DNA from: a virus
Virus record (IMG/VR): IMGVR_UViG_3300048908_000435
Location: 1 to 21,968 of that record
DNA length: 21,968 nucleotides
Reading direction: 5' to 3' (one strand)
Numbering within the stretch: the stretch's first letter is position 1; the number at the start of each line of letters is the position of its first letter. Made by a program: the position numbers and the translations under genes. Below are positions 10,020-20,355 of this stretch, in pieces. The notes under the pieces were generated by a model that saw only the letters and a program-made list of their open reading frames with translations, searched no databases and had not been told where the DNA came from.

Positions 10020-10288
<269 letters not shown>

Positions 10289-13494: not shown

Positions 13495-13616
13495 TCTTCC
13501 TGCGCTGGATCTATCTCAAAGGCGGTCGGCGCGTGGCGGTGTTTTCGCGGCGGCGCCGGAGAAATCCTGACGGGATCTGGCGCGCCATTCAAATCGAATT
13601 GCGGAGGGTGGCGTGA
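13491..13616 (+). CDS. Very small basic protein (41 aa)
   Basis: This is a short frame starting MIFLRWIYLKGGRRVAVFSR and ending IWRAIQIELRRVA. It overlaps the previous stop by ATGA and the next start by GTGA, so it exactly fills the space between two genes. That coupling is the main support. The protein is very basic and amphipathic, and I do not recognise it. Confidence 0.65.
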   Translation: MIFLRWIYLKGGRRVAVFSRRRRRNPDGIWRAIQIELRRVA

Positions 13617-14428
13617 GCGAACTGACCGAACTGTCCATCGACGGCTTCACGCCGCCCGCGCCGCCGGAGTCCGGTCCCGCGCCGCAACTGCAATGGATCA
13701 AGCTCGCCCTGTTGCGGGTCGATCGCGCCTATCAGCGCGACATTCTGCGCAACGGCCAAAGGCAGATCGCCCGCATCGCGGCGGCGTTCGACTGGGCCTG
13801 TTTCGCGCCGGTGATCGTCGCCCCGATCGAGGGCGGCCTTTTCGCCATCATCGACGGCCAACACCGCGCTACGGCGGCTCGGCTGGTCGGCAAACAGGAG
13901 GTTCCCTGCCAGATCGTCATCGCCGACGCCCGCAAGCAGGCGATCGCCTTTTCGGCAATCAATGGCGCGGTGACGCGCATGTCGGCGCTGGCGACGTTCC
14001 GCGCCGCGCTGGCCGGCGGCGAGCCGGAAGCGGTCGAGATCGACCGGCTGGCGCGCGAGGCCGGCATTCGCGTCCTCGGCTATCCGCTCGCGGCGGCTCA
14101 GATGAAGCGCGGCGACTGCACCTGTCCCCAGGAGCTGCGCGCGCTGTTCCGCCGCTTCGGCCCTACCGACCTGTTGCGGGCCTTCGTGGCTTTGTCCGCC
14201 TCGGGCGGCGAGATTCGCGGCTATATCTCGCCGCCCGTCCTGCGGGGGCTATGCGCGCTGTTCGCGGCCAAGCCGCTCGGGATCGACGTCATCCGCGTCT
14301 TTTTCCGGCGCGTCGATTTTCCGTCCGTGGTGACGGAGGCGAAGCGGCGCGACGGCTTTTCGCTCGCCGATGAAATCCGCACGGTGCTGGCGGAGAAGAT
14401 GGTTCAAGCCGCGCGGAGGGTTTCCTGA
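13613..14428 (+). CDS. ParB-like nuclease-domain protein
   Basis: This 271-residue protein starts at GTG 13613 (GGAGG upstream, GTGA overlap). The ParB/sulfiredoxin-like core is evident: IKLALLRVDRAYQRD (about 29-43) and the signature IIDGQHRATAARLVG (79-93), preceded by FAPVIVAPIEGG. These folds bind CTP or DNA or act as nucleases; the exact role in phages is unsettled. The C-terminal half is helical (LRALFRRFGPTDLLRAFVAL) and carries no second known domain. Its position before the primase suggests a role in replication or partition. Confidence 0.88.
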   Translation: MSELTELSIDGFTPPAPPESGPAPQLQWIKLALLRVDRAYQRDILRNGQRQIARIAAAFDWACFAPVIVAPIEGGLFAIIDGQHRATAARLVGKQEVPCQIVIADARKQAIAFSAINGAVTRMSALATFRAALAGGEPEAVEIDRLAREAGIRVLGYPLAAAQMKRGDCTCPQELRALFRRFGPTDLLRAFVALSASGGEIRGYISPPVLRGLCALFAAKPLGIDVIRVFFRRVDFPSVVTEAKRRDGFSLADEIRTVLAEKMVQAARRVS

Positions 14429-14685: not shown

Positions 14686-14882
14686 GCGACGCCCAGATCG
14701 AGGATCTCAACGCCCGCGCCGATCTCGGCGCGCTGGCGGACCCGCGCAAGCCTGAGCTGTCCCGCGGGAGGCTTTACGTTTTTGTGGCGTCGCTGAACTG
14801 GCGGTGGCGGGCGGCTTTCGCCTTGGCGGCGGCATTCTGGCTGACCTGTGCTTTGGTCTCCCTGTTCGGGAGGCCGCTGTGA
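14676..14882 (+). CDS. Small membrane protein with a primase-like N-terminus
   Basis: The first 20 residues, RVSDAQIEDLNARADLGALA, nearly copy the primase N-terminus (RISDAQIQHLNARANLAALA). After residue 23 it differs and ends in a hydrophobic segment (RAAFALAAAFWLTCALVSLF), a single membrane helix. It appears to have arisen by local duplication of the primase gene's start joined to another sequence. It precedes the primase and overlaps its GTG start. It could anchor replication factors at the membrane, but it may also be a nonfunctional relic. Confidence 0.65.
   Translation: MRVSDAQIEDLNARADLGALADPRKPELSRGRLYVFVASLNWRWRAAFALAAAFWLTCALVSLFGRPL
14688..14740 (+). repeat. 53-bp direct repeat, copy 1 (primase N-terminal segment)
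   Basis: This matches 14894-14946 at 48 of 53 positions by manual alignment, offset by 206 bp. It encodes the shared DAQI..LNARA.L.ALA segment. Confidence 0.88.
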
Positions 14883-16084
14883 CGCGCATTTCCGACGCCC
14901 AGATCCAGCACCTCAACGCCCGCGCCAATCTCGCCGCGCTGGCGGAGACCTTCGGCGCGACTTTGCGGAAATCGGGCCGCAACCTGATCGGCTCCTGTCC
15001 GCTGTGCGGCGGCGGCAAGCGCGCGACGCGGTTCGAGATCAAGGACAATGGCGCGCTGTGGCTGTGCGCGGTCTGCGCCGAGGGCGGCGACGCCCTGGCG
15101 CTGGTGCAAAAGGCGCGCGGCTGCGATTTCCGCGCGGCGGTCGAATTCCTGGGCGGCGCGGCGTCGCTCTCGGCCGAGGACGAGGCGCGGCTGGCGCGCA
15201 AACGCGCCGCCGAGCAGGACAAGCGCGAAAAGGCCGCCGCTTTCTTCCGCACGCAGGAAATCGCACGGGCGCAAAAGCTGTGGGATCACGCCGAACTGTT
15301 CGGTCGCGAGGGCGTCGAAAGCTATTTGCGGGGGCGGGGCTGCCTGCTGCCCAGTTCTGCCGACATCCGCGGCGCGCGGGCCGTGCCCTATTTCCATGGC
15401 GAGACGGTGGACGAGCTGGGGCGGCGCTCGCCGCGCGTGCTGATGCGCGGGCCAGCCATGGTTTCGGCCGTGCGCGACAATGACGGCGCCTTCTGCGCCG
15501 TTCATGTGACCTATCTCGCCGCCTCGCTGACCCGCAAGGCCAAGGTGACCGACCCCGACAATGGCGAGGCTTTGCCGGCCAAGAAAGTGCGAGGCGCCAA
15601 GGCGGGCGGCCATATCGTTTTACGCCTGCCTGAAGATCCCAAAAGGCTGTTCCTGGGCGAGGGGATCGAGACGGTGCTTTCGGTCGCCACGGCCCTGAAG
15701 CGCGAGGGCCGGATGCGCGGCTCGGACGCGTTCTGGTCCGCGGTCGATCTCGGCAATCTCGGCGGCAAGGCTGTTTCGAGCGTGGCGCATCCGATGCTGA
15801 AGACGCCAGCCGGGCGGGCGCAGCGGGTTCCTGGCGCCGAGCCTGATTTTTCGGCGCCGGGGATCACGATTCCCGCCAGCGTGACCGAGCTGGTCCTGCT
15901 CGGCGACGGCGATTCCGACGCCTTCACCACCGGGCTGGCGATGCAGCGGGCGGCGGCGCGTTATGCCCGGCCCGGGCTGTCGATCCGGATCGTGATGGCT
16001 CCGGCGGGGCTGGATTTCAACGATCTCCTGGTGAGCGCCAAGGCGCGGCCAGATGGCGCCCAAAGCAAGGAGCACGCGGCATGA
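14879..16084 (+). CDS. Zinc-finger/Toprim DNA primase
   Basis: The 401-residue protein has a CHC2-like zinc ribbon (Cys40, Cys43, Cys63, Cys66: CPLCGGG and LWLCAVCAEGGDA) and a Toprim catalytic fold with LFLGEGIETVLSV (about 257-269), LLGDGDSDAFT (about 339-349) and a downstream DFND. It should synthesise RNA primers for phage replication. The start is GTG 14879, overlapping the previous stop, with GGGAGG 6 nt upstream; longer in-frame starts lie in the preceding gene. The D5/SF3 helicase follows three genes later, completing a primase-helicase pair split into two proteins. The family resembles phage primases annotated as DUF7146/Toprim proteins. Confidence 0.93.
   Translation: MTRISDAQIQHLNARANLAALAETFGATLRKSGRNLIGSCPLCGGGKRATRFEIKDNGALWLCAVCAEGGDALALVQKARGCDFRAAVEFLGGAASLSAEDEARLARKRAAEQDKREKAAAFFRTQEIARAQKLWDHAELFGREGVESYLRGRGCLLPSSADIRGARAVPYFHGETVDELGRRSPRVLMRGPAMVSAVRDNDGAFCAVHVTYLAASLTRKAKVTDPDNGEALPAKKVRGAKAGGHIVLRLPEDPKRLFLGEGIETVLSVATALKREGRMRGSDAFWSAVDLGNLGGKAVSSVAHPMLKTPAGRAQRVPGAEPDFSAPGITIPASVTELVLLGDGDSDAFTTGLAMQRAAARYARPGLSIRIVMAPAGLDFNDLLVSAKARPDGAQSKEHAA
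14894..14946 (+). repeat. 53-bp direct repeat, copy 2 (primase N-terminal segment)
   Basis: This is the partner of 14688-14740 and encodes primase residues 6-22. The five mismatches fall mostly as codon changes E/Q, D/H, D/N and G/A. Confidence 0.88.
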
Positions 16085-16491: not shown

Positions 16492-16748
16492 CCGCGGATG
16501 ATTTTTTCACACAGGCCGACCAGGCCCTGCGCGGCGCTGTGGCCGATCTGTGCGCCAAGGCCGGGGCTGAGGGAACGGAGCCGGAAGACGTCTGCGCGGC
16601 GCTGCTGTCGATCCTCGTCGCCTGCGCCTTCGACGTCGCTGAGGCGACGCCCCTGCCGTCAGACCGGGCGCTGCAGCTGGTGTGCGACATCGCGACGCGC
16701 CATACCGCGATCTGCGCGGCCGAGGAAGGCGCGGTCGGGAATGCGTGA
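16488..16748 (+). CDS. Small hypothetical protein
   Basis: This is an 86-residue acidic helical protein (MTADDFFTQADQALRGAVAD, EPEDVCAALLSILVACAFDV, ALQLVCDIATRHTAICAAEE). ATG 16488 overlaps the preceding stop; a start 18 nt earlier is possible but has no such overlap. It overlaps the methyltransferase by 8 nt. No known domain. Confidence 0.75.
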   Translation: MTADDFFTQADQALRGAVADLCAKAGAEGTEPEDVCAALLSILVACAFDVAEATPLPSDRALQLVCDIATRHTAICAAEEGAVGNA

Positions 16749-17313
16749 GATTTGGCCTTTCGATCCGCTGCGCCCGTTCTCTTTCGACGTGATCGTGGCC
16801 GATCCGCCATGGCTGTTCGATCTGCGCTCGGAAAACGGCGAGGGCAAATCGCCGCAAGCGCATTACAACTGCATGTCGATTGAGGATATCGCCGCGATGC
16901 CGGTCGGGGATCTTGCGCGCGGCGATTGCTGGTTGTTTCTCTGGACCTGCGCGCCCTCGCTCGATCGCGCGTTCGATGTCCTGCGCGCGTGGCGGTTCAC
17001 TTATTGCTCGCGTTTTTCCTGGGCGAAGAAGACCGTGAATGGAAAGAAACGGCTCGGTCCCGGCTATGTCGTTCGGACGCTTCACGAGGATATTCTGATC
17101 GGCAAGATCGGCGAGCCGCGTCGCGCCAAGGCGCTGAATTCCCTGTTCGACGGCGTCGCGCGCGAGCACTCGCGCAAGCCGGATGAGTTCTTTTCGCTGA
17201 TCGAAGGTTTCGCGCCCGACGCTTTCCGGCTCGACCTGTTCTCGCGTCAGAACCGCCCGGGCTGGACCAATTGGGGCAATGAGGCGACAAAATTCGATGA
17301 GGTCGCGCCTTGA
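16741..17313 (+). CDS. MT-A70 family adenine methyltransferase
   Basis: This 190-residue protein has the MT-A70 catalytic motif DPPW at residues 21-24 (FDVIVADPPWLFDLRS), an HYNCMSIEDIAAMPVGDLA stretch, CWLFLWTCAP, and a C-terminal AREHSRKPDEFFSLIE with DLFSRQNRPGWTNWGNE. Bacterial and phage members make N6-methyladenine in DNA. It may protect phage DNA or alter initiation near the origin. Start 16741 gives the typical short N-terminus; the longer frame to 16498 overlaps another gene. It is coupled to the helicase gene by TTGA. Confidence 0.93.
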   Translation: MREIWPFDPLRPFSFDVIVADPPWLFDLRSENGEGKSPQAHYNCMSIEDIAAMPVGDLARGDCWLFLWTCAPSLDRAFDVLRAWRFTYCSRFSWAKKTVNGKKRLGPGYVVRTLHEDILIGKIGEPRRAKALNSLFDGVAREHSRKPDEFFSLIEGFAPDAFRLDLFSRQNRPGWTNWGNEATKFDEVAP

Positions 17314-19031
17314 CCGACCCCTCCAAACTCATTTGCGACATGGTCGAGGGCGCCGCTCCGCAGCCTCCTGAGGCCGGTGGGGACGTTTTTGCGTTCTCGC
17401 CGCCGCGCGAGGATGGCCCGCCGCCAGGCGGCGGCGACGGCGCCGATCCGAAGGTGCTCGATTCCTGCGCCTCGCTCGACCAGAACGACACCGACAATGG
17501 CAAGCGGCTGCTGGCGCATTTCGGCTCCGAACTGCTCTATGTGCGCGAGGTCGGCTGGCATTGCTGGAAGGGCACGCATTGGGAATATGAGGGCGGGCAG
17601 GAGGGGATCGAGCGCCTCGCCCAGGAGACCGCGCGCCGGATCAAGCTGGAGGCGCTGCATATCGCGCCGACGCCCGGCGACAAGGCTCTGATCGACGCGC
17701 TAGAGGCGCTCGATAAGCGCGCGCCAGACGATTTGAGCGAGGGTGAAAAGACGGCGTTCAAGGCCGGCGAGGCCGCGCGCGAGCGGCTCGGAAAACGCCG
17801 CGCCGACCGTCGCAAATTCGCGGTCTCCTCCGGCAACCGCGCCCGCACGGTGGCGATGATCGCCCAGGCCGCGCCGCACCGCACCGTGCCGCCCTCGGAT
17901 ATCGATTCGCAGCACATGCTGTTCAACGTCCAGAACGGCACGCTGAAATTCCGCCGCTTCATGGAAGAGGATCTGGACTGCCCGGATCCGGACGTGACGC
18001 GGCTGAAAAAGGCGGCCGAAGTCACGCTCGAGCCGCATAATCGCGACCACATGATCGCCAAGCTCGCGCCCTGGACCTATGACACCGACGCGCGTTGCCC
18101 CAAATTCATGACATTTCTGGAGCGCTTCCAGCCCAATGCCGAGCAGCGGCGCTTTCTGCAGGTCGCCGCGGGGCGCGCGCTCGTCGGCGGCGCCTCGTCG
18201 CAGGTGCTGATCTTCCTCTATGGCGACGGGGCCAATGGCAAATCCGTCTTCATGGAGCTGCTCGCGCGCATGCTGGCGGCCTATGCCGGGCGTCTGAAGC
18301 CGGAATCGATCACCGGGGCTCTGGAGCAGAGCGGCGACAAGGCCACGCCCGATTTCGCCCGGCTGCAAGGCAAGCGGTTCGTCGCCATTGCCGAGCTGCC
18401 GCGCGGAGCGCCTTTGCGCGAGGGGCTAGTGAAGGCCATGACGGGCTCGGAGCCCATGCCAGTGCGCCATCTGAACCACGGCTTTTTCGACCTGGTCCCT
18501 GAGTTCATCCCCTTCATGTCGGGCAATCAGATGCCCGAGATCGGCGGCCTCGATCGCGGCATCTGGCGGCGCATGAAATTCGTGCTGTGGCCCGTGACCA
18601 TTCCCGACGAGGAGCAAAAGCCGCTGCCCGAAGTGGTGGAGGACATTCTGACCGAAGCCAGCGGCATCCTTAACTGGCTGGTCGAGGGCGCGCTGGCCTT
18701 TCTCGCCGAAGGGCTGGTCGATCCGCCTGACGTCAAGGCGCTCGGTGAGGAGCATCGCAGCGATCTCGATCCCGTCGGCAATTTCTTGCGCGACTGCGTG
18801 AAGAAGACGCCGGGGCAAAAGGTCCAGGCGCGCACCATGTTCGCCGCCTTCATCTCCTATTGTCGCGCCAACGCCATTCGGGAGTGGAAGGAAAAGAGTT
18901 TCGCCGTCGCGATGAAGCAGAAGGGTTTTGCGCGCGAGGACAAGCGCATCCGGTTCTGGCTGGATTGCGAGCTGCATGGCGTGCCCGACCGGCCCGACGA
19001 ACGCGATTACCCGGAGGACTATGGGCGATGA
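17310..19031 (+). CDS. D5/SF3 phage replication helicase
   Basis: This 573-residue protein starts at TTG 17310, overlapping the previous stop. Residues about 200-270 resemble the D5_N region, followed by SF3 motifs: Walker A YGDGANGKSVFME (Lys311), a Walker B-like FVAIAEL, and motif C with FIPFMSGNQMPEI and the GLDRGIWRRMKFV arginine-finger region. It should form a hexamer that melts the origin and unwinds DNA in an ATP-dependent way, as in P4 alpha or vaccinia D5. The N-terminus lacks a recognisable primase, which is supplied by the Toprim gene upstream. The iteron-rich putative origin lies directly downstream, as with P4 alpha and its cis region. Confidence 0.94.
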   Translation: MTDPSKLICDMVEGAAPQPPEAGGDVFAFSPPREDGPPPGGGDGADPKVLDSCASLDQNDTDNGKRLLAHFGSELLYVREVGWHCWKGTHWEYEGGQEGIERLAQETARRIKLEALHIAPTPGDKALIDALEALDKRAPDDLSEGEKTAFKAGEAARERLGKRRADRRKFAVSSGNRARTVAMIAQAAPHRTVPPSDIDSQHMLFNVQNGTLKFRRFMEEDLDCPDPDVTRLKKAAEVTLEPHNRDHMIAKLAPWTYDTDARCPKFMTFLERFQPNAEQRRFLQVAAGRALVGGASSQVLIFLYGDGANGKSVFMELLARMLAAYAGRLKPESITGALEQSGDKATPDFARLQGKRFVAIAELPRGAPLREGLVKAMTGSEPMPVRHLNHGFFDLVPEFIPFMSGNQMPEIGGLDRGIWRRMKFVLWPVTIPDEEQKPLPEVVEDILTEASGILNWLVEGALAFLAEGLVDPPDVKALGEEHRSDLDPVGNFLRDCVKKTPGQKVQARTMFAAFISYCRANAIREWKEKSFAVAMKQKGFAREDKRIRFWLDCELHGVPDRPDERDYPEDYGR

Positions 19032-19181
19032 GGCTTTTTCCCGCAGCCCTGTTCGGCGTTTGTGCCGGATTTTGCCCTCGCGGCGGTCGAAAAACGCGAG
19101 GGTGCGCGAGGATCGCGCGAGGATCAAAAACAACCCTCGCGGCTCTGTGTCAGGCTGTTTTCTAAGAAGAGCGGGCGGAGC

Positions 19182-19199
19182 GCGAGGGTTGCGAGGGTT
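19182..19199 (+). repeat. Left arm of a perfect 18-bp inverted repeat in the origin region
   Basis: Two tandem 9-mers GCGAGGGTT. The exact reverse complement occurs at 19273-19290, 73 bp away. The arms could form a cruciform or bind two initiator dimers. Confidence 0.92.
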
Positions 19200-19272
19200 C
19201 GCGCGCCTATGTGTATAGGCAAACGGGGTTACGGGGCCTCTCTTTGTTCTTCTCTATACGTCTCTAAGGAAT

Positions 19273-19290
19273 AACCCTCGCAACCCTCGC
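19273..19290 (-). repeat. Right arm of the 18-bp inverted repeat
   Basis: Two tandem AACCCTCGC 9-mers, the exact complement of 19182-19199. The AT-rich core starts directly after it. Confidence 0.92.
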
Positions 19291-19395
19291 AGAGACACAA
19301 TAACAGATTGATATAAAACAAAAAAATAGGAGCGAGGGTTGTCTTTGACCCTCGCGCGATCCTCGCGGACCCTCGCAACGGCGGAAGAGGCGGAC

Positions 19396-20355
19396 ATGAG
19401 CGGCGAAAAACTGAAGCGGATGGCGGTGATTGAGCTGGCCCGGAAATGGGGCGGCGCGATGAAGGCGGCGGTCGTGGCCGCGGCGAAGCAGCGGATCGAC
19501 ATCGAGGCGCTGCTCGCCTGGGCCTATCTGCGCGAGTTGCCCAAGGTTCCGCGCATACCCTCCGCGCCGGAGGAATGGCGGCGCGCTTGGGACAAGGTGA
19601 GCCAGATGGGCGAGGAATTGTCGCTGGCCGGCCTCGACGATAATCGCTTCGGTGTCGTGCCCGATTTCTTCGCGCAGGATCTGCCGCACAATGACGCGCT
19701 ACTCGTCCACGACGCGGTCTGCGCGCTTGACGCCTTCTGCCTGAGCCTGCCCGACGACTGGTCGCCGCTGGACGATCTGGGCGATCTGGGCGGCCATGCC
19801 GGCGAGGTGGCGGCCAGGGCGCTGGATCGGCTCACGTCGATCGACGACAAGGGCCAGCGCCGCCTACGCCGCACGCCGCGCCGCCTGCTGATGCGCCACG
19901 CCATTCTCGGCGGTGCGCCGGACTGGGAGATCGAGCCGCCGGAAGTGCGCTTTGTGCAGGAATATGGCGCCGACAAATGGTTCGTGCGTGAGGTGATCGT
20001 GACGGATGGCGCTTTCGGGCCGTCGCGGTTCGAGGTCGAGCTCGACGGCTTCGACCATGTCCGGCGCATGCCCAAGCCTTTCGCCTATCGCAAGACCGAA
20101 CTTTCGCCAGATCCGACCGACGGCTGCGTCGCGCGAGCTGAATATGAGGTTTGGCGCTATGCGCTTGATGCGCTTGTCGCCGATCTCGATGGCCGGCTAG
20201 AGCGGTTTGATGTGGTGGCAAGCCCGCGGCCGATGAGGCCATGGGAGGAGCCTGCGCCGCAGCTGGGGCGCGTGCTGCCCGATCTGACGCGGCCGGCGGC
20301 GCGCGATTCGGGAAAAGTGCGCGGCGGCCAAAAAAAGATCACAAGCGTCGCTTGA
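19396..20355 (+). CDS. Large hypothetical phage protein
   Basis: This 319-residue protein starts MSGEKLKRMAVIELARKWGG with GAGG 5 nt before ATG; the frame is open to 19339, but that part lies in the iteron region. It has no recognised motif. Visible features are an acidic middle (DDWSPLDDLGDLGGHAGEVA), an arginine-rich patch (QRRLRRTPRRLLMRHAI) and beta-rich FVREVIVTDGAFGPSRFEVE. It lies between the origin and the packaging genes, where phages often carry late-early regulators or replication accessories. Function unknown. Confidence 0.85.
   Translation: MSGEKLKRMAVIELARKWGGAMKAAVVAAAKQRIDIEALLAWAYLRELPKVPRIPSAPEEWRRAWDKVSQMGEELSLAGLDDNRFGVVPDFFAQDLPHNDALLVHDAVCALDAFCLSLPDDWSPLDDLGDLGGHAGEVAARALDRLTSIDDKGQRRLRRTPRRLLMRHAILGGAPDWEIEPPEVRFVQEYGADKWFVREVIVTDGAFGPSRFEVELDGFDHVRRMPKPFAYRKTELSPDPTDGCVARAEYEVWRYALDALVADLDGRLERFDVVASPRPMRPWEEPAPQLGRVLPDLTRPAARDSGKVRGGQKKITSVA

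Follow-up and report, generated by a model that had tools for sequence, protein, structure and literature searches.

The window analysed here, the 21,968-bp virus contig IMGVR_UViG_3300048908_000435, contained a gene for a P4-family/D5-type SF3 helicase, which was preceded by genes for a ParB-like protein, a primase, and an MT-A70 family methylase, and was followed by a non-coding gap crowded with short repeats (Table 1). Beyond the gap lay a phrog_9306 gene, and an HNH endonuclease and small-terminase-like genes were located 1.5-2 kb downstream of the repeats. With respect to satellite status or helper dependence, the 22-kb window is a fragment that harbors these HNH and small-terminase-like genes, and its plasmid relatives carried full virion gene sets. 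No tRNA or Rfam families were found in the window. A separate hexamer-based tandem repeat, (GCCGTC)n, occupied positions 10026-10260 as 13 copies of the 18-bp unit GCCGTCGCCGTAGCCGTC and was open on both strands, reading GYGD.. on one and AVAVAV.. on the other.

Table 1. Genes and sequence features in and around the repeat array (window coordinates).
Feature	Position	Strand	Remarks
ParB-like DUF6551 protein	13613-14428		phage early region; phrog_1033
Zn-ribbon/Toprim primase, a gene of its own	14876..16084	+	Pfam Zn_ribbon_DnaG, Toprim_3; phrog_510
MT-A70 family methylase gene	16744-17313		immediately 5' of the helicase gene
P4-family/D5-type SF3 helicase, 573 aa	17310..19031	+	proposed initiator
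Winged-helix codons, residues ~507-556	18828..18977	+	AF2 model and covariation peak; wing-tip R546 at 18945-18947
Extra iteron GCGAGGG	19075..19081	-	outside the dyad
Left outer arm	19096..19140	+	iterons 19096(+), 19106(+, GCGAGGA), 19117(+, GCGAGGA), 19134(-)
Left inner tandem iteron pair	19182..19199	+	GCGAGGGTT x2
Centre, 73 bp, flanked by the inner pairs	19200..19272	.	dyad centre 19236
G-box GGGGTTACGGGG	19225..19236	+	like strand and similar distance in 28/37 relatives
Right inner tandem iteron pair	19273..19290	-	inverse of 19182-19199
IHF-consensus site TATCAATCTGTTA	19301..19313	-	no mismatch to WATCAANNNNTTR; inner pair 23 nt away
Right outer arm	19332..19376	-	iterons 19332(+), 19349(-), 19360(-, GCGAGGA), 19370(-)
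phrog_9306 gene, function not assigned	19396..20355	+	3' of the putative origin

A first-pass annotation of the letters alone had described 13 GCGAGGG-like heptamers (10 exact) at 19075-19376, an exact 18-bp inverted repeat formed by two tandem pairs, and a non-coding gap directly after the helicase gene, and each of these was recovered on recounting: three copies of GCGAGGA bring the iteron total to 13, the inner repeat is exact, and the array begins 44 bp after the helicase stop and ends approximately 20 bp before the ATG of the next gene. Exact GCGAGGG occurred 20 times in the 22-kb window, compared with 9.6 +/- 3.0 in dinucleotide shuffles, and the local enrichment that the annotation had proposed to check was evident, with 10 of the 20 exact copies lying within 1.4% of the window (density counted in the phage window). 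Two features were absent from that annotation. The outer arms form a 45-bp inverted repeat that is 93% complementary, including non-iteron bases, and 12 of the 13 iterons have an exact mirror partner, as regards both position and orientation, so that two oppositely oriented sets, making six mirrored pairs, flank a central stretch. The orientations are +++-++ in the left half and --+--- in the right, with spacings of 10, 11, 17, 48, and 9 that are repeated as 9, 48, 17, 11, and 10, and the third iteron of the outer group lies approximately 65 bp from the inner pair. Six mirrored pairs, against 2.3 expected, were reached in none of 200 random placements. A second iteron cluster was not found in the 22-kb window, and a scan of 19000-19450 detected two terminator-like hairpins inside the repeats.

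The match between the outer arms extended past the iterons in the window and in other loci (the arm loops were identical in L007 and agreed at 13/14 positions in L037), and the loops varied from locus to locus, as would be expected if the two arms evolved concertedly. This likeness of the 45-bp arms beyond the iterons suggests that they may undergo recombinational homogenization.

Helicase searches recovered related loci from viral contigs, genomes, phages, and plasmids, 138 of them distinct by helicase sequence and many of them metagenomic contigs. The region 3' of each helicase stop was scanned de novo for arrays with at least 5 exact and at least 8 near copies of a 7-mer, a threshold that compares with no more than 3 exact copies in shuffled controls. 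Arrays were identified in 89 loci with an adequate helicase score (83 after redundancy removal), and in most relatives, including phages, prophages, and plasmids across phyla, the array lay directly 3' of the helicase gene; some relatives were circular plasmids, and some plasmids carried ParA. The iteron words differed widely (GCGAGGG, TTCGAGG, TCGAGGG, CACAGGG, AGAGGGT, TGTAGGG, GGTGACG, GGGAGG, GGGACG, GGAGAGG, TGTTACT, and others). Mirror symmetry was significant (p <= 0.005) in 38 of the 83 loci, and within a locus the left spacings equalled the right spacings even where loci differed from each other. The loci used for symmetry and covariation had been picked for many iteron copies, without regard to their symmetry, their IHF sites, or their wing residues. 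The first-pass annotation had held that a lack of conserved spacing in relatives would speak against an origin, and the spacing was found to be conserved. An alternative layout, also with six iterons per half (++ + +++ on the left and --- - -- on the right), was found in phages Pan4 and Nsp-JY21 and in L085/L088; Bordetella phage BPP-1 had a visible 2+2 array, approximately three iterons per half were seen in phage A2 and five in several relatives, and full symmetry was missing in some GCGAG-like arrays (L032, L044, and L108). A shared layout with differing words points to one docking design with a swappable address.

The AT-rich stretch that had been noted at 19291-19331 contained 75.6% AT against a window average of 35.3%, and no 41-mer in the window was richer in AT, although two others tied with it. 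This stretch sits in the right arm, off the centre of symmetry, and holds the only exact IHF-consensus site of the window; it is a candidate unwinding element and/or the A-tract of an IHF-like site. The right spacer was richer in AT than the left in 18 of 23 relatives. The central 73 bp were mildly AT-rich (49% AT, compared with 35% for the window), the richest stretch being that in the right arm, whereas A2-type and phi105 loci had AT-rich centres instead. The centre contained a G-box (GGGGNNNCGGGG across the family); in 28 of 37 loci it lay on the same strand, with approximately 25 nt between it and the left inner pair. At the family level, the left and right halves of the centre resembled each other in inverse (0.42, compared with 0.34 when shuffled), most clearly in L045 and BPP-1 and weakly in the window (0.37). 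GC skew of the window and of three whole relatives did not locate an origin.

The site at 19301-19313 was the only exact IHF-consensus match in the 22-kb window and was accompanied by a 5' A/T tract (a sequence criterion), whereas the IHF-like site of the left arm was degenerate, with 3 mismatches, and off position. When the 48 nt outside each inner pair of the 38 symmetric loci were scanned for WATCAANNNNTTR in dyad orientation, the mean number of mismatches was 1.79 on the left and 1.71 on the right, compared with 3.33 and 2.97 in shuffled sequences (0/100 each). Arms with no more than one mismatch numbered 17/38 on the left and 18/38 on the right, against 0.6 and 1.3 expected, and the sites were mostly 23-25 nt from the inner pair across unrelated iteron words. 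We infer that these fixed elements are IHF sites. The array might also be an origin in which the element is a second helicase contact or the site of another host or phage protein, since IHF was assigned by consensus and the element is degenerate in the left arm of the window; the closeness of the consensus match, its strand orientation, its independence of the iteron word, and the excess of arms with at most one mismatch speak against this explanation, which is plausible but on balance doubtful. No IHF match with fewer than 2 mismatches was detected in the 300 bp of the A2, L099, L101, L107, and phi105 loci; to our knowledge, Firmicutes do not have IHF.

The helicase scored 203.7 bits against TIGR01613 (curated cut-off, 108.7) and matched Pfam D5_N (2e-22); it contained D5_N and helicase domains only and no primase domain. 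Its PDB profile matches included ASFV C962R and 7ola, the latter presumably being SaPI5 Rep, which would thus be a homolog of the window helicase. An AF2 model (pLDDT 81.8) predicted a C-terminal winged helix with a recognition helix at residues 528-537 and a wing at 542-555. A blind sliding window was used to compare pairwise iteron distance with the distance of 16-residue helicase windows after removal of core distance. The top covarying windows fell in the winged-helix region, starting at residues 493-495 and, for the wing, at 537-539, and their values (0.34 and 0.32) exceeded the maximum of 500 permutations (0.298). Among 41 disjoint nearest pairs, the difference in iteron followed the difference in wing (Spearman 0.69; partial 0.50 with the core controlled, p = 9e-4), whereas the N-terminal part of the helicase showed no correlation (partial -0.11, 41 pairs) and the AAA core showed a weak partial trend (0.30, p = 0.057). 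Shared ancestry is not fully removable from such tests. Arg546, at the wing tip, had the strongest association in the protein, occurring in 37 of 38 GCGAG loci as against 10 of 45 others, and Arg548 had the second-strongest; these counts ignore phylogeny, and the nearest-pair test is the better guide. The covariation strongly supports the prediction that the C-terminal winged helix of the helicase recognizes the iterons.

The array could instead consist of operators through which transcription of the 19396-20355 gene is controlled, bound either by the product of that gene or by some early regulator. The array stops approximately 20 bp short of the ATG, and a phrog_9306 gene came next in 52 of the 83 loci; on the other hand, the remaining 31 array loci had no detectable homolog, the phrog_9306 sequence did not covary with the iterons (partial r 0.027; over the same loci the helicase wing gave 0.394), no sigma70-like promoter was found by a promoter scan of 19000-19450, and a 12-site dyad across 280 bp would be unusual for operators. 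The AF2 model of the phrog_9306 product (pLDDT 80) had no PDB fold match. These comparisons argue that the phrog_9306 product is probably not the iteron binder and render the operator explanation improbable, although the array may have a secondary regulatory role.

The first-pass annotation had proposed an iteron-type origin, to which the adjacent SF3 helicase or another early protein might bind, with P4 ori/crr and iteron plasmids as parallels. Satellite phage P4 has an SF3 helicase of broadly the same family that binds iterons. However, P4 alpha combines helicase and primase in one polypeptide, whereas the primase of the window is encoded by a separate gene, and P4 ori/crr consists of two separate sites, whereas the 22-kb window contained one cluster; the P4 system was rejected as a model on these two features, the fused primase and the two iteron regions. 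Origins of the RepA/TrfA iteron plasmids resemble the array in iterons, an AT-rich region, and IHF-type bending, but their initiators have no helicase domain and recruit DnaB, and their iterons are mostly tandem instead of a 6+6 dyad. A RepA-type origin, with a winged-helix initiator devoid of a helicase domain, was also rejected, as the adjacent candidate is an SF3 helicase. Lactobacillus phage A2 is a distant relative (tblastn E 8e-53) that has a homologous P4-family primase-helicase and mirrored iterons about an AT-rich centre; it differs in its iteron (ACGGGAGGAT), in the number of iterons visible in each half, in the absence of an IHF-like site, and in the fusion of the primase. The A2 record annotates a rep_origin at the end of the primase gene (L118:4320-4829; NC_004112, 32208-32717), where its inverted iterons are located. 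The A2 origin has reportedly been the subject of a publication; the evidence used here is the record annotation.

The closest likeness was to the PICI/SaPI rep-ori of SaPIbov1, SaPI5, and EcCICFT073 (PMC6092414, PMC7581432), in which the origin is directly 3' of a self-loading initiator helicase, oppositely oriented iteron sets surround a central stretch, the helicase C-terminal domain determines specificity, and the iteron words vary between elements. SaPI Rep and SCCmec Cch2 recognize the origin directly downstream of their own gene by the C-terminal domain, and the isolated domain of Cch2 binds its origin (PMC7581432); a PICI rep-ori drives plasmid replication (PMC6092414). The relatives of the window differ in that they include full phages and phage-plasmids instead of satellites, and the window differs in having twelve iterons, some of them inverted, that form an exact 6+6 dyad, as well as in its fixed IHF-like sites, its G-box, and a centre that is not its AT-richest part. 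SV40 large T and papillomavirus E1 also place mirror-image SF3 double hexamers on short repeats, but their origin-binding domain is N-terminal and is not a C-terminal winged helix (PMC7581432). Conserved spacing, winged-helix covariation, and the annotated A2 origin thus support the earlier proposal of a helicase-served origin, whereas its two parallels are less apt than the rep-ori (PMC6092414, PMC7581432) because the primase is separate, the window has no second cluster, and the initiator would be a helicase and not of RepA type. Region 19075-19376 very likely serves a temperate phage or phage-plasmid as an origin of replication that belongs with the PICI/SaPI rep-ori type, and it is predicted to be bound by its own helicase.

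Two further functions were considered. A DNA packaging site (cos/pac) would fit the nearby HNH-terminase genes and Rhodobacter phage RcapNL, in which an annotated 3' cohesive overhang lies just past the iterons (L116:5692-5973) and the origin and cos therefore adjoin. However, the arrays of A2 and phi105 are located many kb from the ends of their linear records, with the annotated rep_origin of A2 at its array, a Methylobacterium currus plasmid carries an array and has no virion genes in its (incomplete) gene table, and the iterons track the helicase, so packaging is very improbable. It is just as improbable that the array is a parS-like centromere to which a partition protein, for instance the ParB-like product of 13613-14428, would bind. 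The window does encode this protein, and some relatives are plasmids with ParA, but the gene is 5 kb distant, and in relatives from different phyla the array stays 3' of the helicase gene and covaries with the winged helix encoded there.

For an origin at 19075-19376, the following mechanism is proposed, in which iteron binding, IHF occupancy, the loading of one ring per six iterons, melting, and bidirectionality are inferred. The C-terminal winged helix of the helicase would bind the GCGAGGG(TT) iterons, with the wing, chiefly Arg546, reading the 5' GCGA part. Each half-origin would comprise six iterons in two groups, the outer four and the inner tandem pair, which an IHF-type bend at 19301-19313 would juxtapose. 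A helicase ring would then be loaded on each flank of the 73-bp centre, the two rings being mirror images; either this centre or the AT-rich stretch would melt, and bidirectional synthesis would start with the phage Toprim primase, the likely priming partner of this origin. That six iterons per half correspond to one hexamer per half is put forward only as a hypothesis, because the halves of A2, BPP-1, and several relatives contain fewer. A broader proposal, tentative and quite possibly wrong, is that the 6+6 dyad acts as a stoichiometric template, in which the six IHF-folded iterons of each half recruit exactly one hexamer, the pair of halves positions a head-to-head double hexamer, and the wing forms a readable code (Arg546 with GC at the iteron 5' end) whose specificity switches by small changes; both the +++-++ and the ++ + +++ layouts would supply six iterons per half. 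If specificity does switch by small changes in the wing, incompatibility between phages and satellites would switch as well.

An origin organization that was described in 2018 as shared by no other known replicon than the PICIs (PMC6092414) is, judging from these loci, widespread in phages and phage-plasmids, and is thus extended to full phages. This bears on the ways in which satellites and phages share replication or compete for it, as well as on the building of narrow-specificity vectors in alphaproteobacteria. The loci also provide dozens of natural helicase-iteron pairs with switched specificity, with R546 as a candidate residue. This origin offers a defined symmetric substrate for studying the loader-independent loading of D5/SF3 helicases onto duplex DNA.

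Several individual relatives had features of their own. The 46-kb Methylobacterium currus plasmid (L171:9547-18619) contained a P4-family primase, GCGAGGG iterons, and a type I-E CRISPR-Cas system, and its gene table, which is incomplete, named no further replication protein. Phages Pan4 and Nsp-JY21 (L176 and L178) are recorded from cyanobacteria, but their origins are styled like those of alphaproteobacterial elements, with IHF-like sites in L178, and their host assignment may be worth checking. The right arms of the primase-linked origins of L099, phi105 (L117), and A2 (L118) shared a non-iteron element, CCTTGNGAGAGTAAG, variants of which were present in L101 and L107.
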